This document shows positions 3 to 8,989 of a stretch of DNA of 64,000 nt, piece by piece. A program made the translations under genes and the position numbers. Source of the DNA: Oceanicola sp. 502str15 (GTDB lineage Bacteria > Pseudomonadota > Alphaproteobacteria > Rhodobacterales > Rhodobacteraceae); assembly GCF_024105635.1 (NCBI RefSeq), contig NZ_WYDQ01000001.1, forward strand, positions 2,914,501-2,978,500, given 5' to 3'. The notes beneath the pieces were generated by a model, which was given only the letters and a program-made list of their open reading frames with translations, had not been told where the DNA came from and did not search any database. Numbering within the stretch: the first letter of the stretch is position 1; each line of letters starts with the position of its first letter.

Positions 3-488
3 AAGGTCTCGGTCTTTCTCGGCAAGGTCTGCGGGGTGTTCTACCTCGCGGCCGTGGCGCTTTCGCTCTACGAGGTCTTCATGCGCTACGTGATGGGCGC
101 GCCAACCTCCTGGACCTCCGAAACCATCATGGTTCTGGTGGCCACCGCCTGGATGCTCTGCGTCGGCGCGGTCACACAGCAGCGCCGCCACATCACCGTC
201 ACCACCATGGAAATCCTCGTCGGTGAGGCGCTTTGGAACCGGATGAAGAAAATCGCGATCCTTCTGTCCATGATCGGCGTGGCCGGGCTCGTGATCATGC
301 TCTGGGAGCCGATGGTGAAGGTGCTCCGCGCGCCCCAGACCACCGGCAGCGCCTTCGATCCCTATACGCCGACCTACATCAAGCCAATGCTTCTGGCCTC
401 AGCGGTGCTCTACTTCCTGCAACTGCTCGCAAACCTCCTGACACCAGCGCACCAGCGCCCCGCTCCCGCCGGCCTTGGAGTTGAATGA
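3..488 (+). CDS. TRAP transporter small permease (DctQ type), 5'-truncated
   Basis: Small membrane subunit of a tripartite ATP-independent periplasmic (TRAP) transporter. It pairs with the large DctM subunit to import an organic acid-type solute delivered by a periplasmic DctP protein. The reading frame is open to the left edge, so the real start and the DctP gene probably lie outside; an internal GTG at 36 would give 150 residues. Several hydrophobic spans are visible, with the family-typical Arg-Tyr...Pro-Thr-Ser-Trp-Thr-Ser-Glu stretch after the first. The stop overlaps the start of the next gene by four bases (ATGA), which is usual for DctQ-DctM pairs. The substrate cannot be told from the sequence. 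Confidence 0.85.
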   Translation, partial: KVSVFLGKVCGVFYLAAVALSLYEVFMRYVMGAPTSWTSETIMVLVATAWMLCVGAVTQQRRHITVTTMEILVGEALWNRMKKIAILLSMIGVAGLVIMLWEPMVKVLRAPQTTGSAFDPYTPTYIKPMLLASAVLYFLQLLANLLTPAHQRPAPAGLGVE

Positions 489-1795
489 TGGGCATCGAAC
501 TTGTCACCCTCTGCATCGTCTCGGCGCTGTTCATCCTCATGGCCATCGGGGTGCCGCTCGGCGCCTCGACCCTGCTGATCTCGGTCGCCACCGCCTACCT
601 CGCCTACGGCAGCAACGGCTTTATCCTCGTCACCTCCGCCGTCACCAAGGTGATGGACAAGCAGACCCTCGTGGCGGTGCCCTTCTTCGTCTTCATGGCC
701 AATATCATGGAGCGATCAGGGGTCGCGAAAGAGCTGTTCAACTCCATGGCCGTGCTCGGCGGCCGGATGAAAGGCGGCGTCGCGGTGCAAACCTGCCTCG
801 TGGCCGTGGTGCTGGCGGCCATGTCGGGGATCGTGGGCGGCGAGATCGTGCTGCTCGGGCTCATCGCCCTGCCGCAGATGTTCCGTCTCGGGTATGACCG
901 CAAGCTCTCCATCGGGGTGCTCTGCGCCTCGGGCTCGCTGGCCACGCTCATCCCGCCCAGCGTGGTGCTGATCGTCTATGGCGCCGAGGCCGGGGTGTCT
1001 GTGCGCGACCTGTTCACGGCGGGCGTTGGCCCCGGCGTGCTGCTGGCGTCGCTCTACATTGCCTATGTGCTGTTCCGGGTAAAGATGAGCCCCGCCATGG
1101 GCCCCGCCTATGACGCGCCCGAGGCCCACCTGCCGTTCTTCGAGCGGCTCGCCTACCTCAAGGGGCTTGTCCTGCCCTTCCTGCTGATCTTCGGCGTGCT
1201 CGGCTCGATCTACGGCGGCATCGCCACCGTCACCGAATCCGCGGCCATCGGCGCGGTCGGCTCGCTGATCGTGGCCGCCGCCCGGCGGGAGCTGACCACC
1301 AAGGGCGTGCGCGAGGCGCTCTGGGCGACGACGCTCACCACCGGCTCGATTCTCTGGCTCATCATCGGGGCCGTCAGCCTCGTGGGCATCTACAACCTGA
1401 TGGGCGGCACCCGCTTTCTGAGCGGCATCCTCACCGGCCTCGACATGGCCCCGATCATGGTCATCATCGTGATGATGCTGATCATCTTCTTTCTGGGCAC
1501 CTTCCTGGAGTGGATCGCCATCGTCTTCATCACCGTCCCGGTCTTTGCGCCGGTGGTGGTGCAGCTCGGATATGACCCGGTCTGGTTCGGCATCCTCTTT
1601 GCCATGAACATCCAGATCTATATGCTCTCGCCGCCCTTCGGCCCGGCGTGCTTCTACCTCAAGAGCGTGGCGCCCAAGGATGTGACGTTGCAGGAAATCT
1701 TCCTTGCCGTGCTGCCCTTCATCGGGCTCCAGATCATCGGGCTGGCGCTGGTCATGGCCTTCCCGCAGATCGCGCTCTGGCTGCCGGGCCTCTAG
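485..1795 (+). CDS. TRAP transporter large permease (DctM type)
   Basis: Large permease subunit of the same TRAP system, 436 residues, the usual length for the family. It is hydrophobic throughout, with about a dozen membrane spans, and carries the family's Leu-Ile-Pro-Pro-Ser motif (LATLIPPSVVLIVYG) and a C-terminal counterpart (LSPPFGPACFYLKS). It starts at ATG 485 inside the last codons of dctQ, so translation is probably coupled. It forms the sodium-driven channel of the transporter. A 40-residue membrane ORF follows 13 bases after the stop. The solute is unknown because the binding protein is outside the window. Confidence 0.92.
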   Translation: MMGIELVTLCIVSALFILMAIGVPLGASTLLISVATAYLAYGSNGFILVTSAVTKVMDKQTLVAVPFFVFMANIMERSGVAKELFNSMAVLGGRMKGGVAVQTCLVAVVLAAMSGIVGGEIVLLGLIALPQMFRLGYDRKLSIGVLCASGSLATLIPPSVVLIVYGAEAGVSVRDLFTAGVGPGVLLASLYIAYVLFRVKMSPAMGPAYDAPEAHLPFFERLAYLKGLVLPFLLIFGVLGSIYGGIATVTESAAIGAVGSLIVAAARRELTTKGVREALWATTLTTGSILWLIIGAVSLVGIYNLMGGTRFLSGILTGLDMAPIMVIIVMMLIIFFLGTFLEWIAIVFITVPVFAPVVVQLGYDPVWFGILFAMNIQIYMLSPPFGPACFYLKSVAPKDVTLQEIFLAVLPFIGLQIIGLALVMAFPQIALWLPGL

Positions 1796-1951: not shown

Positions 1952-3172
1952 CTAGCGGGTGCTCGCGTCAGCGAAGCTGTCGAACAGGTCAGCCGCGCCC
2001 ATCTGGCCACCCTTGAGCATCACCCGCATGCCATTCCTGCCGGGGTCCGCGTGGCGGCCGGAGCAGATGCAGGCGCCCTGCCCCATGTCTGCAAGGTAGT
2101 CGAGCGCCGTGAACCCGAGACGGGCAACGATGCGGCTGGAGGTATCTCCGCCGGCGAGACCGAGGGCCCGGAGCGGCGACAGGGCCGCGATCCGGGCGAC
2201 GACCCCGGCGCAGATGTCGGCGAGGGCGTCGGGGCCGTGGCGATAGTCGGCCTCCGGGTCGAGGTGCAGCAGCAGGGGGCGGTCGGCAGACATGCTTTCT
2301 GCGAGCCGGGCGGGGGTTTGCGGGTCGTCGAGCATTGCCGGGGTGAGTTCCACACGCTGGTAGGCCCGGGCCGTCGCGACCTGCGCGGCCGTGACCGAAG
2401 ACCGCGACCCGGCAAAGGTGAGCAGCCCCCCCGGCGGTGGCGCGGGGGCGGATATGGTTGCGGGCTCCATCCCGGTGGCGAGGATCTCGGCAATCGAGCT
2501 TGCACCAATGAGAAGCTGACGCCCGCCTGCCTGCGCGAGCGCCTCGCCGATCCTTGGCAGGTCATCGGCGCTCATGACGTCGATCAGGGCGGGGCCTGCG
2601 CGCAGGATCTGGGCCACCTGATCGGTGTCATGCAGGCCGGGGAGGGTGATGCGCGTCAGCGGAGCGAGGCCCTGAGCCTCGAGGTGGCGGCCCAGATCGG
2701 CCTCCTGCATGGGCGTGACCGGATGGTGGGACATCACCGGGTGCCGGTCGATCCGATGCACCGCCCCGTCAGGCCCGCGTGCGAACAGCGTGCCGAAGGC
2801 GCAGTAACGCCCGAGGCTCGGCTGGCCCCCGATCACCGCCGTCACGTCCGGTTTGAACAGCGCGATGAGCTGACGTGCCACCGCGCCGATGCTGCCGACC
2901 TGTGGCGCGGAGTCAAAGGTGGAGCAGGTCTTTAGGTGAAGCACGTCTGGCGCCTCGCGGGAGATCATCGGCCATAGTGCCTCCACGACCTGCTCGGCGC
3001 GCGATGGTTGCAGGGAGCGGAGATCGGTTGCGATGCCGAGCACGTCGAGGCCATTTTCCGGCGCAGCATCACCGGTGACGAGGCGCGTGGCGAGCCCGCC
3101 GCGGGCATAGGTGGCGAGGCTGTCGGAGGCGCCGGTGAAATCGTCGCCGAGAAAGACGATCCGCGCGCCCAT
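1952..3172 (-). CDS. Four-carbon acid sugar kinase family protein (DUF1537), OiaK-like
   Basis: Predicted ATP-dependent kinase of the DUF1537 family, 406 residues. Visible marks are the N-terminal Gly-Asp-Asp-Phe-Thr-Gly-Ala (residues 9-15), a Gly-Gly-Gln-Pro segment near the middle, and a C-terminal Gly-Gly-Asp-Thr-Ser nucleotide-binding motif. Family members phosphorylate acid sugars or their oxo-derivatives. The start is ATG at 3172, which shares one base with the stop of the upstream RuBisCO-like gene (TGATG), so the two are translationally coupled. In characterised D-apionate pathways a DUF1537 kinase (OiaK) makes 3-oxo-isoapionate 4-phosphate for a RuBisCO-like enzyme; the pairing here suggests the same or a related substrate. 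The exact substrate is inferred, not shown. Confidence 0.88.
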   Translation of the reverse strand: MGARIVFLGDDFTGASDSLATYARGGLATRLVTGDAAPENGLDVLGIATDLRSLQPSRAEQVVEALWPMISREAPDVLHLKTCSTFDSAPQVGSIGAVARQLIALFKPDVTAVIGGQPSLGRYCAFGTLFARGPDGAVHRIDRHPVMSHHPVTPMQEADLGRHLEAQGLAPLTRITLPGLHDTDQVAQILRAGPALIDVMSADDLPRIGEALAQAGGRQLLIGASSIAEILATGMEPATISAPAPPPGGLLTFAGSRSSVTAAQVATARAYQRVELTPAMLDDPQTPARLAESMSADRPLLLHLDPEADYRHGPDALADICAGVVARIAALSPLRALGLAGGDTSSRIVARLGFTALDYLADMGQGACICSGRHADPGRNGMRVMLKGGQMGAADLFDSFADASTR

Positions 3173-4434
3173 CAGCGGCTGCCGAAGAAGTCGAGGGCGG
3201 CAGCGAGGGCCGGCCGGTTGGCGGCTGCTTGGGCGAGGCTTTCTCCTTCGGAGAGCGCCTCGTAGGCGTCCCGCAGCGAGGCGATGCCCGCCGCCGGGCC
3301 ACCCGGATGGGCGAGGATGCCGCCGCCGCACATGAACATCAGGTCCGCCGATCCCGCCGCCTCCAGCGCGGAGCCAAGCGTGCCGGCCCATTGGCCGGAG
3401 GAGAAGGCGGGCATGACCGCGTCGTCGGCGCCCTCGGCCAGTGGAGCGAGGCAGGCGCGGGCGGCCTCGGTGACTTCCTCGGCGCTGTCGACGAACTTGC
3501 CGCCGATCCCGTGGACATGCATGTGATCCACCCCGGCCAGCCGGTAGAGCGCCTGGTAGGCGGGGAAGGCCATGCCGAGCGCCGGGTGGCGGCTCATGGC
3601 GCCGAAGCCGTTGCGGTGGCCGTGGATCGCCAGCGGGGTGTGGGCGCGGAGGGTTTCCATTGCCGAGAGGCCGCACCAGTTGAGCGAGGCCATCACGCAG
3701 GTCCCGCCGTGCTGCGCCACGAGGTCGGCATGGCGGCGCATCGCGTCTGTCTCGTCGGTGATGTTGAAGGCCATCATGACGCGGCGGCCTGATGTGTCCT
3801 CCGCGCGCTTGATCGCTTCCATCACCAGCGGCACTCGTTGCGCAAGTGGGGCAACATCGGGGTTGGCGCAGATCTCGTCATCCTTGATGAAGTCGACACC
3901 GGCGGCACAGAGATCGGCCACGAGCGCGGCAATCGCCTCGGGGGTCATGCCGACGTTGGGCTTGATGATGGTGCCGAAGATCGGGCGGCCCTGCACGCCG
4001 AGGCTGGAGCGGGTGCCGGCGATGCCCTGCGCGGGCCGCGGGTAGCGGGCGCGGTATTCGGCTGGGATGGTGACATTGAGCAGCTTCAGCCCAGTGACTT
4101 CGCCCAAGTCGTAGAGGTTGCCTGAAACGGTGGCCGCCAGCGTTGGCAGGTTCTTCCCGATGTTGCCGACCGGAAAGGCAATGCGCACCCTTGCCCGGCG
4201 ATACGGCCCCGGCGCGCCCTTGCGGGCGATATAGGCCGAGGTGAGCGAAGGTTCCTCCACCTCGCCCAGATCCTCGATGTCAAGCACCTGCGCCGCCGAG
4301 CGGGCGCGCAGCTCATCGGTTTCGCCAGCCACGCGAACGAAGGTGCCCGACGATTGCTCGCCTGCCATCATCGCCGCCACATCCTCCAGCGGAAACGGCG
4401 TTTCGATCAGGTAGTCGGCGGTGACGCGCTCCAT
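3172..4434 (-). CDS. RuBisCO-like protein (form IV), OiaX-like
   Basis: RuBisCO large-subunit superfamily protein, 420 residues. Aligned by eye to RuBisCO it keeps the carbamylation/metal triad (Lys184, Asp186, Glu187 in GVDFIKDDE), the Lys of the TIIKP motif (Lys158), His-Arg at 273-274, His306/His308, loop-6 Lys313, Ser345/346 and the phosphate-binding Gly370-372. RuBisCO Lys177 is replaced by Asn160, which argues against CO2 fixation. The proteins known to me with a DUF1537 kinase partner act on 3-oxo-isoapionate 4-phosphate as transcarboxylase/hydrolase or decarboxylase. The gene is coupled by TGATG overlaps to the kinase downstream and the VOC gene upstream. Family assignment is strong; the reaction is inferred from context. 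Confidence 0.9.
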   Translation of the reverse strand: MERVTADYLIETPFPLEDVAAMMAGEQSSGTFVRVAGETDELRARSAAQVLDIEDLGEVEEPSLTSAYIARKGAPGPYRRARVRIAFPVGNIGKNLPTLAATVSGNLYDLGEVTGLKLLNVTIPAEYRARYPRPAQGIAGTRSSLGVQGRPIFGTIIKPNVGMTPEAIAALVADLCAAGVDFIKDDEICANPDVAPLAQRVPLVMEAIKRAEDTSGRRVMMAFNITDETDAMRRHADLVAQHGGTCVMASLNWCGLSAMETLRAHTPLAIHGHRNGFGAMSRHPALGMAFPAYQALYRLAGVDHMHVHGIGGKFVDSAEEVTEAARACLAPLAEGADDAVMPAFSSGQWAGTLGSALEAAGSADLMFMCGGGILAHPGGPAAGIASLRDAYEALSEGESLAQAAANRPALAAALDFFGSR

Positions 4435-4973
4435 CAGATCGCGGAGAGGTCGGGGAAGGGGCGCACGGGATCGCTGCCATCCCAGCCCACGGCGGCCTCG
4501 CGGATCATGTCGAACATCCGCCCCTTCGGCCCCATCACCTCGGAAAGCTCGATACAGGTGCCCGGATGATGCTCCTGCTCGAAATACACGAACCGCCCGT
4601 TCTGCCCCACGGTGCCAGACATCTTCACCGTGAAGCCCCGCGCCTCCATCATCGCCAGATCGTCGTCAAACTGCGTGGTCCAGAAGGCCACATGCTGCAA
4701 ACCGCGCAGCCCCTTCTGCATGTAATCGCGATACATCGAGGGCACGTCATTGCGGGTCTGGATCAGCTCCACCTGCATCTCGCCCGAGTTCGCCAGCGCC
4801 ACGGAGTTGTGCGGCACATAGCTCTCACCCCCGTAGGTGTAATTCTCGATCGGCACCTGCGGATTGTAGAACCACGGGCCAACGCCCATGACCTCCGACC
4901 AGTGCTTCATGCCGGCTTCGATATCGTCCACGACGATGCCGAGCTGTCGGATCGGGCCGAGTAGGTTGCTCAT
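4434..4973 (-). CDS. VOC-superfamily (glyoxalase/epimerase fold) protein
   Basis: A 179-residue protein with the paired beta-alpha-beta-beta-beta pattern of the vicinal oxygen chelate superfamily. Likely metal ligands by position are Gln10 (in IRQLGIVVDD), Glu69 (MQVEL), His94 (GLQHVAFW) and Glu142 (CIELSE); Gln replaces the more usual His at the first site. Members act as isomerases, epimerases, lyases or ring-cleaving dioxygenases. It lies between the TRAP genes and the RuBisCO-like gene and shares one base with the latter (TGATG at 4434), so it is probably expressed at a matched level. Its role in the pathway is not known to me; an isomerase or epimerase step before phosphorylation is a reasonable guess. 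Confidence 0.85.
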   Translation of the reverse strand: MSNLLGPIRQLGIVVDDIEAGMKHWSEVMGVGPWFYNPQVPIENYTYGGESYVPHNSVALANSGEMQVELIQTRNDVPSMYRDYMQKGLRGLQHVAFWTTQFDDDLAMMEARGFTVKMSGTVGQNGRFVYFEQEHHPGTCIELSEVMGPKGRMFDMIREAAVGWDGSDPVRPFPDLSAI

Positions 4974-4988
4974 GGGCGCCTCATCTTG

Positions 4989-6272
4989 TCAGGGGGTGTT
5001 CATCAGGGTTTCGGGCAGCCAGGTCGACAGCGCCGGAACGGCGGAGACGACCAGCAGCGAAAGCAGAAGCGGGATGAAGAAGGGCATCACCCCGGCAATC
5101 ACGCGGGTCACGGGCATCTTGGTGATGATCGTGATCATATAAAGGCTCATGCCCACCGGCGGCGTCAGCAGGCCGATCATCAGGTTGAGCACGAAGACAA
5201 TGCCAAGCTGCAACGGGTCCACCCCGGCCATGGTGAGGGCAGGGGCGATGATCGGCGCGATGATCAGGATCGCGGCGATGCTCTCCAGCACCATGCCGAC
5301 CACGAGCAGCAGGATATTGACCAGCAACAGCAGCAGCAGCGGGTTTTCGGTAAGCCCGAGCAGCAGGGCCGAGACCTTCATCGGCACCTGATCCAGCGTC
5401 AGCACCCAGGCGAAAAGCGCTGCGGTGGCCACGACGAATAGGATGTTGGCGGTGGCGGTGGTGGTGTCTTTCAGCGCCTCGAACAGCCCGCGCAGGGTGA
5501 GCGAGCGATAGATGAAGATGCCGATGAACAGCGCATAGGCCACGGTCACGCCCGCCACCTCGGTCGGCCCGAAGTAGCCCGACATCAGCCCGCCGATCAG
5601 CAGCACCGGGGCCAGCAGCGCCGGAAAGGAGATGGCGGCCTTGCGGGCCACGTCGGCGGGGCGGGCGGCGATGGTGTCGCGCGGCAGCGATTTGACCCGC
5701 GCCAGCACGGCGACCTGCACCATCAAAAGCGCGGTCAGCAGCAGCGCGGGCACGATCCCGGCCAGCAGCAGTTGCACCGCAGAGACATTCGCCACCGAGG
5801 CATAGATGATGATCGGGATCGAGGGCGGAAAGATCGGGCCGATGGTGGCGGCGGCCACGGTAAGGCCCGCGGCGAACTCGGGGCGGTAGCCCTGCCGCGT
5901 CATCTGGTCGATCTGGATCTTGCCGAGCGCGCCGATGTCGGCCAGCGCCGCGCCGCTCACGCCGGAAAAGATGAGCGAAACGAGGATCGAAACCTGCGCC
6001 ACCGCGCCCCGGATGCGGCCCAGCACCATGCGTACAAGATCGAAGAGGTGAGTGGTGACTCCGGTCGCATTCAGCAGCGAGGCCGCGAAGATGAACAGCG
6101 GCACCGCCAGCAGCGGCGAGCTGTCGAGCGCGTTGAGGCTGCGCTGCGCCAGCACCGAAACCGGCAGCCCCTCGCTCACGATCACCACGGCGGCGGAAAG
6201 GCCGAGGCACACGGCAACCGGGGCGCCCGCGATCAGCAGAACGAAGAAGATGGTCAGCAGCAGGGCGGTCAT
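4989..6272 (-). CDS. TRAP transporter large permease (DctM type) of the sugar-acid operon
   Basis: Large TRAP permease subunit, 427 residues, hydrophobic throughout, with the family motif FPPSIPIIIYASV and the C-terminal LTPPVGMSLYMI. It starts at ATG 6272, overlapping the stop of the small permease by four bases (ATGA). The stop is 15 bases before the start of the VOC gene, so transporter and enzymes read as one operon on the minus strand. It most likely imports the compound degraded by the kinase and RuBisCO-like protein. The reading frame extends upstream to 6662 but that part lies inside dctQ and is not protein-like. Confidence 0.92.
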   Translation of the reverse strand: MTALLLTIFFVLLIAGAPVAVCLGLSAAVVIVSEGLPVSVLAQRSLNALDSSPLLAVPLFIFAASLLNATGVTTHLFDLVRMVLGRIRGAVAQVSILVSLIFSGVSGAALADIGALGKIQIDQMTRQGYRPEFAAGLTVAAATIGPIFPPSIPIIIYASVANVSAVQLLLAGIVPALLLTALLMVQVAVLARVKSLPRDTIAARPADVARKAAISFPALLAPVLLIGGLMSGYFGPTEVAGVTVAYALFIGIFIYRSLTLRGLFEALKDTTTATANILFVVATAALFAWVLTLDQVPMKVSALLLGLTENPLLLLLLVNILLLVVGMVLESIAAILIIAPIIAPALTMAGVDPLQLGIVFVLNLMIGLLTPPVGMSLYMITIITKMPVTRVIAGVMPFFIPLLLSLLVVSAVPALSTWLPETLMNTP

Positions 6273-6796
6273 GCGGTTTTCAGCGCCTCTTCCGCGCCCG
6301 CCTCGCCATAGGGGGCGGTCGGATTTTTGCCGCGCAGGGTGGCCGCGATCCGATCGAGCGCCACAAGCGCCAGAAACAGCGAGCCGGTCAGCGCGAGCGA
6401 ATAGTAAAACCAGTTGGGCACCCGCATCGCCGGGGTCAGGAATTTGCCCGCTCGCGGCAGGAACTCGGCAAAGCTCCAGAGCAGCAGCGCGGCGAAGACC
6501 AGCGTGGCGATATCCGCCAGCAGTTGCAGCAGGCGGGCGGCGCGCCCGCCGAGCAGGTCGGGCAGCATGGTGACAGCCACCAGCGATTGCCGCCCCGCCA
6601 GCGCGGGCACCGACAGAAACACCAGCCCGATGCCGCTGAACCGGGCCAGCTCGTCGGCCCATGGCAGGCCGATATCAAGGAAGTTCCGGGCCGCGACCTG
6701 CGCCACCACCAGCACCGCCATCAGGGCGAGAAGGGTGAGGCCAAGCCCCACCCCCCAATTTGCCACGCGGGCGATCATGCTGCTGATGCGGCGCAT
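6269..6796 (-). CDS. TRAP transporter small permease (DctQ type) of the sugar-acid operon
   Basis: Small TRAP membrane subunit, 175 residues if started at ATG 6796 (MRRISSMIARV...), which lies 10 bases after the dctP stop; a later ATG at 6778 is possible. The frame continues upstream to 6904 inside dctP, but that extension is Ser/Arg-rich and not convincing. Four hydrophobic segments are visible, with the typical ARNFLDIGLPWADELARF stretch after the first. It pairs with DctM, which overlaps its stop by four bases. Confidence 0.88.
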   Translation of the reverse strand: MRRISSMIARVANWGVGLGLTLLALMAVLVVAQVAARNFLDIGLPWADELARFSGIGLVFLSVPALAGRQSLVAVTMLPDLLGGRAARLLQLLADIATLVFAALLLWSFAEFLPRAGKFLTPAMRVPNWFYYSLALTGSLFLALVALDRIAATLRGKNPTAPYGEAGAEEALKTA

Positions 6797-6806
6797 TCCG
6801 GCGGGC

Positions 6807-7817
6807 TCAGATCGCGGCGATCTTGGCGTAGAGATCGCCGTATTCGGCGCCGAAACGTTCGTCGACCAGCTTCGACACGCTCTCGCGGAAGCCCGCCAGA
6901 TCAAGCCCGTCTTCCTCGCCGATCACCGTCATGCCGAGATCGCGCAGCTGCTGGGTCTCGCCCTCCTCGTTGTCGAGAATGGCCTTGGTGGCCTTTTCGC
7001 GGGTCTGGGTCGAGGCTTCGCGCACGGCCTCTTTCTGGGCATCGGGCAGGCCCTGCCATACGTCCTCGTTCATCACCACGACCTCGGCGTTGCTCATATG
7101 GCCGGTCAGCATCAGGTGGCTCTGCACCTCGTAGAGCTTGACGTTGAGCACCACGTTCACCGGGTTCTCCTGCCCCTGCACCACGCCGGTGGCCAGCGCC
7201 GTGGGCACCTCCGACCAGTCGACCGGCACGGCAACGGCGCCCATGCCCTCTACGGCGGTGGTGTAGATCGGGAAGGGCACGGCGCGGATCTTCACGCCCT
7301 CAAGGTCCGCCGGGCCCATGACCGCCTTGTTGCAGGTCAGGTTGCGGCGGCCGAAGTAGTGGGCATAGATCACCCGCACGTTGGCGGCGGCGATCAGGCC
7401 CTCGTTCAGCTCCTGCATGACCGGGCTTTCCACGTCGGTCACCGCCATCAGGTGGTCGATGTCGCGGTAAAGATAAGGCGTGTCGAGCGCGGCGAAGGGC
7501 TGGTAGAGCGAGCCGAGCGCGCCGGCGGTGTTATGCGAGAAGGCGATTGTGCCGAGCGAAACCGCCTCGGCCAGCTCCTGCAACTTGCCCAGTTGGCTGT
7601 TGGGGAAGACCTGCACCTCAAGCTCGCCGCCCGAGGTCTGGCCGAGGGCTTCGGCAAACCAGTCGGCCTGCGCGCCGGCGACCGAGGCGACCTCGTTGTT
7701 GTGGCCATAGCGCAGGCTGGTGGCCGCAAAGGCGGGCCGCGCGACGAGCGGGGCCGCCAGCGCGGCGCCACCGAGGGCCAATACGGAGCGGCGGTTCAAA
7801 CCGTTGAAGTGTGTCAT
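6807..7817 (-). CDS. TRAP transporter substrate-binding protein (DctP type)
   Basis: Periplasmic solute receptor of the TRAP system, 336 residues. The start is ATG 7817, preceded by a strong GGGAGGAG ribosome-binding site. The N-terminus has a twin-arginine-like export signal (NRRSVLALGG, then a hydrophobic core ending Ala-Phe-Ala). The mature part shows DctP hallmarks such as GVKIRAVPFPIY and the conserved Asn-Pro after GVVQGQ (QGQENPVNVV). It is the first gene of the minus-strand operon; the 155-base gap to the divergent regulator holds a palindromic operator. An acid-sugar or oxo-acid ligand is inferred from the genes downstream. Confidence 0.93.
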   Translation of the reverse strand: MTHFNGLNRRSVLALGGAALAAPLVARPAFAATSLRYGHNNEVASVAGAQADWFAEALGQTSGGELEVQVFPNSQLGKLQELAEAVSLGTIAFSHNTAGALGSLYQPFAALDTPYLYRDIDHLMAVTDVESPVMQELNEGLIAAANVRVIYAHYFGRRNLTCNKAVMGPADLEGVKIRAVPFPIYTTAVEGMGAVAVPVDWSEVPTALATGVVQGQENPVNVVLNVKLYEVQSHLMLTGHMSNAEVVVMNEDVWQGLPDAQKEAVREASTQTREKATKAILDNEEGETQQLRDLGMTVIGEEDGLDLAGFRESVSKLVDERFGAEYGDLYAKIAAI

Positions 7818-7917
7818 CTCTCTCCTCCCGAGATTTCTGATGTATTCTGAGGCACAGGGCCGCAATCGCAAACGGCAAATCCTCAGGAAATCGTGTCTTT
7901 GACATAGGGTAGGGAAT

Positions 7918-7935
7918 TGAACCATGATTGGTCCA
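7918..7935. promoter_or_regulatory. Candidate LacI-family operator in the divergent promoter region
   Basis: An 18-base inverted repeat, TGAACCA-TGAT-TGGTCCA, with six of seven half-site positions matching, lies between the divergent dctP and regulator genes. Size and symmetry fit a LacI-family operator. On the plus strand a TTGACA hexamer (7899-7904) sits upstream, and with an 18-base spacer a CATGAT -10-like hexamer (7923-7928) falls inside the palindrome, so binding would block the regulator's own promoter. Inferred from sequence only. Confidence 0.55.
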
Positions 7936-7972
7936 GCAGATAAGATTGATGTATTTTGAGGGGTCTTGCCAG

Positions 7973-8989
7973 ATGGCAACCAAAGCAGATCGCCCGCTTC
8001 TGACCGATATCGCCACGCGGGCCGGGGTTTCGATGGCCACGGTGGACCGGGTGGTGAACCGGCGAAAGGGCGTGTCGGAGCGCACCCGGCTGAGGGTTCT
8101 GGAGGCGGCGCGGGCCGTTGGCTACCTCGGGGATGAGGAAGCGGCGCATATCGGGGCGCAGCGGGCGATGAACATCACCGTGCTGTTGCCTGCGGGCACC
8201 AACCCCTACCTGCGGCTGCTGGGTGACAGGGTGCGGGCGCGGATTGGAGAGCGCGAGGCCAGCGCGCCCTTTTTGCGTTGTTTCTTCATCGAAAGCTTCA
8301 ACGCCCCCGCTCTGGCGGCGGCCCTGCGCCGGGCGGCGGACTGGTCCGACGGGGTGGCGTTCTTTGCCATCGAACACCCGGAAGTGCGCGCCGCAGCGGC
8401 GGAGGTGGCGGCACAGGGGGTGCGGCTGGTGACACTGGTGTCCAACCACGGGGATCGCGCCGGGGTGGCGCACATCGGGCTCGACAACCACGCCGTCGGC
8501 CGCACGGCGGGGCTGCTGCTCGGGCGCCTTGCCGGACGGCGCGAGGGGGCCGTGGCGCTGGTGGCCGGGTCGCGGAACTACCGGGCGCACAGCGAGAGGG
8601 AGGCCGGGTTTCTGAGCCTGCTCGACGAGATGTTTCCGGCCCTCAGCCTCGTCGGCTTACGGGAAGGGCATGACGATGCCGCCCAGAACTATCGGCACAC
8701 GTTGGCGCTGCTCGATCAGCAGCCGGATCTCGTGGGGATCTACAACGTTGGCGGCTCGTCGGGCGGAATCACCCGCGCCCTGCGGGAGCGCGGGCGCGAG
8801 GAGGTCGTGTTCATCGGTCACGGGCTTACCGCCGACACCCGCCGCGCCCTGCTAGATGGAACCATGGATGCGGTTTTCGATCAGGACCCGGACCTGCTGC
8901 TCGACCGCGCCCTGGCCGCGCTCGCCCGGGCGCAGGCCCCCCAGGGGGCGCTGAAGCTCGATATCTACTTTCGTGAGAACCTGCCCTGA
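7973..8989 (+). CDS. LacI-family transcriptional regulator
   Basis: A 338-residue DNA-binding regulator. Residues 9-55 form the LacI-type helix-turn-helix and hinge helix (LTDIATRAGVSMATVDRVVN...RTRLRVLEAARAVGY); the rest is a periplasmic-binding-protein-like ligand domain (MNITVLLPAGTNPYLRLLGDR onward). The start at ATG 7973 places the helix-turn-helix at the usual distance from the N-terminus; an upstream frame from 7928 adds 15 unlikely residues and would cover the operator. It is divergent from the TRAP/RuBisCO-like operon and probably controls that operon and itself, with a sugar acid or phosphorylated intermediate as inducer (inference). Confidence 0.9.
   Translation: MATKADRPLLTDIATRAGVSMATVDRVVNRRKGVSERTRLRVLEAARAVGYLGDEEAAHIGAQRAMNITVLLPAGTNPYLRLLGDRVRARIGEREASAPFLRCFFIESFNAPALAAALRRAADWSDGVAFFAIEHPEVRAAAAEVAAQGVRLVTLVSNHGDRAGVAHIGLDNHAVGRTAGLLLGRLAGRREGAVALVAGSRNYRAHSEREAGFLSLLDEMFPALSLVGLREGHDDAAQNYRHTLALLDQQPDLVGIYNVGGSSGGITRALRERGREEVVFIGHGLTADTRRALLDGTMDAVFDQDPDLLLDRALAALARAQAPQGALKLDIYFRENLP

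Follow-up and report, generated by a model that had tools for sequence, protein, structure and literature searches.

The RuBisCO-like protein (RLP) of Xanthobacter autotrophicus catalyzes transcarboxylation/hydrolysis of 3-oxo-isoapionate 4-phosphate and that of Agrobacterium radiobacter K84 catalyzes decarboxylation, as stated in an excerpt of PMC6302742. Here we describe a locus in a stretch of 64,000 nucleotides (the window; C1:2914501-2978500 of the 4.44 Mb genome of Oceanicola sp. 502str15), in which an RLP is encoded between a VOC protein and a DUF1537-type sugar-acid kinase, together with a TRAP transporter and a LacI-family regulator. The Xanthobacter enzyme, OiaT, yields 3-phosphoglycerate and glycolate. 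The locus would encode all that is needed to break down a single small anionic compound, with the VOC protein replacing the oxidoisomerase known from apionate catabolism, and we consider this reading about as likely as not. On sequence evidence, the cassette is a widespread variant of RLP–DUF1537 sugar-acid cassettes, strongly supported as a unit and moderately so in its class of reaction, with the assignment of the substrate unproven.

Gene order, recurrence and regulator gap

All seven genes are intact and open, six of them on the minus strand and the LacI-type gene divergent. The features are as follows.

1952..3172, minus strand: DUF1537-type sugar-acid kinase, 406 amino acids (Pfam SBD_N 152 bits, NBD_C 60.7 bits)
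3172..4434, minus strand: RLP of its own clade, 420 amino acids (PF00016 RuBisCO_large, 217 bits)
4434..4973, minus strand: VOC protein, 179 amino acids (Pfam Glyoxalase_4)
4989..6272, minus strand: TRAP large permease DctM (Pfam DctM and profile search)
6269..6796, minus strand: TRAP small permease DctQ, start at 6796 or 6778 (Pfam DctQ)
6807..7820, minus strand: TRAP solute-binding protein DctP (Pfam DctP; predicted model m89b737cdde7b, mean predicted local distance difference test score 87.6)
7838..7852, minus strand: operator-like direct repeat CCTCAGAATACATCA, adjoining dctP (motif search)
7947..7961, minus strand: operator-like direct repeat CCTCAAAATACATCA, adjoining the regulator gene (motif search)
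7973..8989, plus strand: LacI-family regulator with a Peripla_BP_4 effector domain, divergent (Pfam LacI and Peripla_BP_4)

The VOC and RLP genes (TGATG at 4434) and the RLP and kinase genes (TGATG at 3172) overlap by one base each, dctQ and dctM overlap by 4 bases (6269-6272), and dctM is separated from the VOC gene by 15 bases. The LacI-type gene starts with ATG at 7973, and an alternative TTG start at 7928 is possible. The gene order, the divergent regulator and the one-base overlaps among the three enzymes described in the original prediction agree with these coordinates and Pfam domains, and its view of a self-contained import-and-degrade unit is borne out by an intact operon with its own TRAP transporter and regulator, the order of which recurs across genomes.

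A scan with 14 members of the window RLP clade gave at least 534 relatives, from which the best 80 loci (L036-L115; 60–79% identity, biased to near kin) were kept. A VOC gene lies within 400 bases upstream of the RLP gene in 79 of these loci, the remaining one (L114) beginning inside the RLP gene, and a kinase gene lies within 400 bases downstream in all 80. A LacI gene is divergent in 76; three of the others are cut or short loci (L078, L108, L114), and L077 has no match. This gene order exceeds chance. The transporter is of the DctP type of the window in 20 loci, of a second TRAP type in 48, and of neither in 12; the five of these that were inspected (L056, L071, L085, L097, L107) carry genes for another binding protein or ABC genes instead, and the binding protein of L107, the one scanned among the five, is SBP_bac_3 by a domain scan. 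In these 80 loci, the neighbourhood of the RLP clade, proposed in the original prediction as a check, is one of a fixed VOC–RLP–kinase trio with varying transporters. All seven RLPs of the window clade (at least 60% identity, its own included) in 295 genomes of the same family adjoin a VOC and a kinase gene, as does every one of the 13 found among 391 genomes of a second family. Plasmid annotations show the same gene order in Roseivivax marinus and, there with a single long permease gene, in Roseomonas haemaphysalidis. According to the organism titles of the matches listed, the hosts are alpha-, beta- and gammaproteobacteria, with the cassette on chromosomes and plasmids, and therefore the substrate is probably common. 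Within open-licence papers, a literature search found no title or abstract opening describing a VOC–RLP–kinase cassette.

LacI-type operators are usually palindromic. Here a search for palindromes gave no 12- to 16-mer present in more than 12 of 77 regulator gaps, and the common motif is a direct repeat, CMTCA-N5-CMTCA. In a set of 80 cassettes (the window, those 76 of the best 80 loci that have a LacI match, and L172, L173 and L180), this repeat occurs within 300 bases from the regulator start in 71, with at least two copies in 37, while shuffled gaps gave a mean of 0.05 over 20 rounds (maximum 1) and 76 control segments gave none. Since palindromes are usual for LacI-type operators, a direct repeat with a ten-base period is unusual, and we regard it as a candidate operator-like element beside the LacI-family gene. 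The strict form CMTCARAANNCMTCA has two matches genome-wide, at 7838-7852 and 7947-7961, both between the regulator gene and dctP (reversed control, none). When one mismatch is allowed, a third match appears at window 115-129, and a single further copy of the loose CMTCA-N5-CMTCA form lies outside the cassette, at window 50480. A regulator acting at a single genomic place would fit a complete unit.

Back to back with the cassette lies a second DUF1537/TRAP neighbourhood (window 36-1795 and L005:7812-12420 just upstream), which contains a 3-oxo-tetronate kinase (593.3 bits), an isocitrate/isopropylmalate-type dehydrogenase, an ABM-domain protein, dctQ/dctM and, by appearance, a GntR-like stretch.

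The RLP–kinase pair and its apparent natural swap

The window RLP belongs to the RuBisCO superfamily and falls in form IV, with the metal-site residues K184, D185, D186 and E187 present in all 100 rows of its clade; Lys184, Asp186 and Glu187 correspond to K201, D203 and E204 of RuBisCO, and Lys313, corresponding to K334, is also present. Its best NCBIfam match is OiaX (NF042437) at 394.5 bits, below the cut-off of 700, and among ten other RLPs scanned against this model only that of L184 passes (762.7 bits). A rapidly built tree with 94 of the 154 rows, flagged for long branches meeting, sets the window clade (40 rows; Shimodaira–Hasegawa-like approximate likelihood ratio test, SH-aLRT, 100) apart from an OiaT-side clade of 46 rows (SH-aLRT 97), and the window RLP lies outside the clade holding the OiaT-named proteins. 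The label OiaT is taken from the source names of database entries: seven of the 120 matches listed for the RLP of L170 are named 3-oxoisoapionate-4-phosphate transcarboxylase/hydrolase, and none of the 120 listed for the window RLP is.

Residues were compared among 100 window-clade rows, 31 OiaT-side rows with five swapped ones described below, and four OiaX-type rows (of which only L184 was scored). Numbers follow spinach RuBisCO; the alignment to RuBisCO 6hun starts at residue 84, so that the placing of E60, T65 and W66 is tentative. Residues retained in the window clade are E60 (one gap), T65, N123, K175, K201, D203, E204, H294, R295, H327 and K334, which include the catalytic set of the OiaT side (E60, N123, K201, H327, K334), with substitutions of Asn for K177, Gln for G381 and Phe for W66. 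On the OiaT side the residue set is the same apart from one Gly at N123, and position 177 is Ser in 30 of 31 rows. The four OiaX-type rows have Asp60, Gly123 and Gln327.

The window kinase has OiaK (NF042436) as its best NCBIfam match (191.7 bits; cut-off 700) and 3-oxo-tetronate kinase (NF043035) as its second (122.8 bits; cut-off 350). All of eight other kinases scanned against NF042436 lie below 700 (281.3 to 570.8). The shortfall extends to kinases encoded next to OiaX as well as next to OiaT-side RLPs (482.2 and 568.9), so that the value of 700 is not diagnostic, and the OiaK model may overlook true members. Two other kinases of the same genome exceed the 3-oxo-tetronate kinase cut-off (512.8 and 593.3).

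The second of the two families includes a genus (g557, probably Bradyrhizobium) in which 11 listed genomes have an RLP: three are of the window type, three have the RLP beside a short-chain dehydrogenase, and five are swapped. In the five swapped loci (L155, L156, L160, L161, L164), a VOC gene lies upstream of an OiaT-side RLP gene and a kinase gene resembling the second one of the Oceanicola genome. These RLPs share 66–67% identity with the second RLP of the Oceanicola genome and 51–52% with the window RLP, and they fall inside the 46-row clade, in a six-row group with an oxidoisomerase-type row (SH-aLRT 100). Their VOC proteins nest in a 13-row group of cassette VOC proteins (SH-aLRT 90; 54-row tree), with best identities of 85–87% to those of Alsobacter, Azospirillum and others. 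Three swapped loci seen in a wide view (L177, L191, L203) carry a LacI gene, the second TRAP type and a kinase gene like the second one of the Oceanicola genome, the kinase of L191 scoring 559 bits against OiaK, and all three keep the CMTCA-N5-CMTCA motif in two copies each. The RLP–kinase pair thus appears to have been exchanged within one kind of cassette, and the two back ends look interchangeable. This replacement by an OiaT/OiaK-type pair suggests a short list of candidate substrates. The match of kinase and RLP to the 3-oxo-isoapionate branch of D-apionate catabolism, claimed in the original prediction, stands in part: OiaK and OiaX are the best matches, the OiaT residues are kept and the swap agrees, but the scores are far below the cut-offs.

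The VOC protein and the oxidoisomerase

Gln10, Glu69, His94 and Glu142 of the VOC protein are invariant in all 17 aligned rows, and they may correspond to the residues that bind metal in the isomerase human glyoxalase I. The VOC protein is the constant partner in the cassette, in all 79 uncut loci of the best 80 and in all 20 window-clade loci of the two families, and it stands at the place of the oxidoisomerase, which points to a new enzyme reaction feeding RuBisCO chemistry. This constancy argues against an accessory role of the VOC protein, detoxifying or as a dioxygenase, with the kinase–RLP pair alone handling an imported 3-oxo acid. In favour of such a role, VOC proteins are functionally diverse, and 19 relatives (44–60% identity) have no RLP or such kinase within approximately 1.5 kb; the neighbours of these 19, in loci of approximately 3.5 kb, are uninformative. 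Extradiol dioxygenases have a 2-His-1-Glu ligand pattern, from which Gln/Glu/His/Glu differs, and altogether an accessory role seems very improbable. Three genomes of one genus (G332, G459, G555) each encode at least 12 VOC relatives of this family, an expansion.

Oxidoisomerase-like, OtnC-like and OtnI-like queries gave no match at E 1e-10 in the best 80 loci, so that the oxidoisomerase expected of a D-apionate cluster was not found in the cassette, and a lactonase query gave a single weak match (L040, 31%). The Oceanicola genome has two RLP genes, the second approximately 0.88 Mb from the cassette. The second RLP gene is followed by genes for a kinase (OiaK, 445.8 bits) and a PF16896 dehydrogenase-like protein; upstream of it are an SMP-30-type lactonase-like gene and genes for 3-oxo-tetronate kinase (512.8), for 3-oxo-tetronate-phosphate decarboxylase (284.1, against a cut-off of 250) and for a protein resembling 2-oxo-tetronate isomerase (266.8, where the cut-off is 325). 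We infer that the PF16896 protein is the apionate oxidoisomerase because a protein of this type lies approximately 6 kb from the above-cut-off OiaX in L184; among the 120 matches listed for it, none is named oxidoisomerase. The surrounding region (L003/L004, C1:3784000-3814000) is a large sugar-acid cluster with dehydratase-like genes as well.

This second cluster bears on the suggestion in the original prediction that the missing enzymes lie elsewhere, that is, that the cassette serves the ordinary D-apionate pathway with the lactonase and oxidoisomerase encoded at another site. The oxidoisomerase-like and SMP-30-type lactonase-like genes are indeed present in the same genome, but the cluster to which they belong encodes a separate OiaT-side RLP and kinase, and in this genome the strict motif is confined to the cassette. 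Moreover, at E 1e-20 the oxidoisomerase-like gene was found in 4 of 20 cassette genomes, the Oceanicola genome included, and not in the other 16 (two of the 20 are less than 90% complete or more than 5% contaminated). The suggestion is therefore not a general answer; it would also leave the VOC protein unexplained, and we consider the ordinary pathway unlikely. The alternative given in the original prediction, that the substrate is another branched or four-carbon acid, may apply.

Among 24 OiaT-side loci viewed widely, 16 have an oxidoisomerase-like gene, three have a VOC gene and five have neither. A third arrangement (L176, L178, L179, L190) consists of RLP, kinase, short-chain dehydrogenase and TRAP genes with no VOC or oxidoisomerase-like gene nearby. 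We read these arrangements as one kinase–RLP back end with three possible front ends, oxidoisomerase, dehydrogenase and VOC protein.

A hamamelonate/2-carboxyarabinitol route, in which the RLP acts as an oxygenase, is reported for Ochrobactrum anthropi, according to excerpts of PMC8914248 and a citation in PMC10176493. Such a route, with a branched acid and a phosphorylated intermediate, would suit the RuBisCO residues kept in the window RLP. No dehydrogenase is a constant partner of the cassette, however: two of three short-chain dehydrogenase queries exceed 40% identity in the same 5 of the best 80 loci, up to approximately 7.5 kb away, and weaker matches occur in 11 to 13. Short-chain dehydrogenases more than 40% identical to two queries also lie near the VOC cassettes in L172 and L173. 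A hamamelonate route is quite improbable for the present cassette.

Proposed route and comparison with known systems

In the route that we favour, the LacI protein would sense the compound or an intermediate and the TRAP transporter would import the compound, which the VOC protein would convert, without a redox step, to a 2-hydroxy-3-oxo acid, either 3-oxo-isoapionate or a compound closely resembling it. The kinase would then phosphorylate the terminal hydroxyl, and the RLP would act on the 3-oxo-acid phosphate via RuBisCO-type chemistry, with cleavage to 3-phosphoglycerate and a two-carbon acid. Two features make cleavage likelier than simple decarboxylation: the RLP retains the OiaT-type residues, and the cassettes share no conserved enzyme downstream. 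By the absence of a conserved downstream gene, products entering central metabolism directly (3-phosphoglycerate and glycolate) are favoured over a ketose phosphate. A more specific form of this route is doubtful: the VOC protein would be a metal-dependent alpha-ketol isomerase that turns an imported 2-oxo acid into 3-oxo-isoapionate by shifting a hydroxymethyl group (or hydrogen), with no redox step, corresponding to the isomerase half of the apionate oxidoisomerase, and the RLP would carry out decarboxylation, recarboxylation and hydrolysis to 3-phosphoglycerate and glycolate, which makes a three-enzyme route starting from a natural compound not recognised so far.

Several points weigh against the route. 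To our knowledge, the proposed VOC reaction is without precedent, and alpha-ketol isomerase chemistry is known in no VOC protein. The swap evidence is limited to one genus, and the scan that found no oxidoisomerase-like gene in the five swapped genomes was without any positive genome, although the same query did match two genomes of the swapped family in the 20-genome scan. The window clade and the OiaT side differ at 14 positions, each at least 90% conserved per side, among which are N160 (at the position of K177), H308 (two residues away from that of H327) and G312 (beside K334). At every one of these positions the swapped RLPs follow the OiaT side, so that the substrate of the window RLP may differ from that of the OiaT side. 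A four-carbon route to dihydroxyacetone phosphate would also fit the lack of a conserved downstream gene, and RLPs are cited in the breakdown of four-carbon sugar acids (in an excerpt of PMC7325909) and of sugars (in an excerpt of PMC9833052).

The binding proteins give hints about the ligand. The nearest solved relatives of the window DctP are 4nq8 and 4p9k/4pak, which have been modelled with pantoate or erythronate. The second TRAP type, that of 48 of the best 80 loci, is 55–65% identical to PDB 4oan (window-type cassette DctPs, 27–31%), a structure presumably containing 2-acetolactate, which is the deoxy counterpart of 3-oxo-isoapionate. As a cassette protein, 4oan was rejected: its relatives lie in 12 stretches (46–84% identity) without RLP, VOC, LacI or such kinase matches. 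Its relation may serve as a family-level hint only, and the DctP ligand evidence is weak.

If the imported compound were a linear four-carbon acid, the VOC protein would interconvert 2-oxo- and 3-oxo-tetronate as OtnI does, the kinase would make 3-oxo-tetronate 4-phosphate, and the RLP would decarboxylate it to dihydroxyacetone phosphate as OtnC does. The 1,2-hydrogen shift suits a glyoxalase-like fold, and the literature on RLPs just mentioned, the ligands of the DctP relatives and the second NCBIfam match of the kinase all point the same way. However, this kinase is far under the cut-off while the genome has two above it, and a pair of the OiaT/OiaK type seems able to take the place of the RLP and kinase. 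The best 80 loci gave no OtnC- or OtnI-like match, though this four-carbon reading needs none. We regard it as possible, though only tentatively.

Compared with known systems, the cassette shares with the Otn system the isomerase–kinase–decarboxylase logic and a DUF1537 kinase, whereas the isomerase and decarboxylase of the Otn system belong to unrelated families and the window kinase is far from a 3-oxo-tetronate kinase by score. OiaX, the 3-oxo-isoapionate-4-phosphate decarboxylase (NF042437), has the fold, Pfam domain and metal-site residues in common with the window RLP, but N123 and H327 are missing in the four OiaX-type rows, and the window RLP is under the cut-off of the model. By far the closest chain to the window RLP is PDB 3nwr, listed as "a rubisco-like protein" with no function given (575.6 bits over 417 residues; next chain, 209.8); its clade, for which no named function was found in the literature searched, gains a testable role. 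OiaT of X. autotrophicus differs in belonging to a separate clade (44–52% identity to the window RLP in the 24 wide loci) with the 14 conserved differences, but it is likewise an RLP adjoining a DUF1537 kinase and has the same catalytic residues, including N123 and H327, and RLPs of its side can stand behind the same kind of VOC protein as in the cassette.

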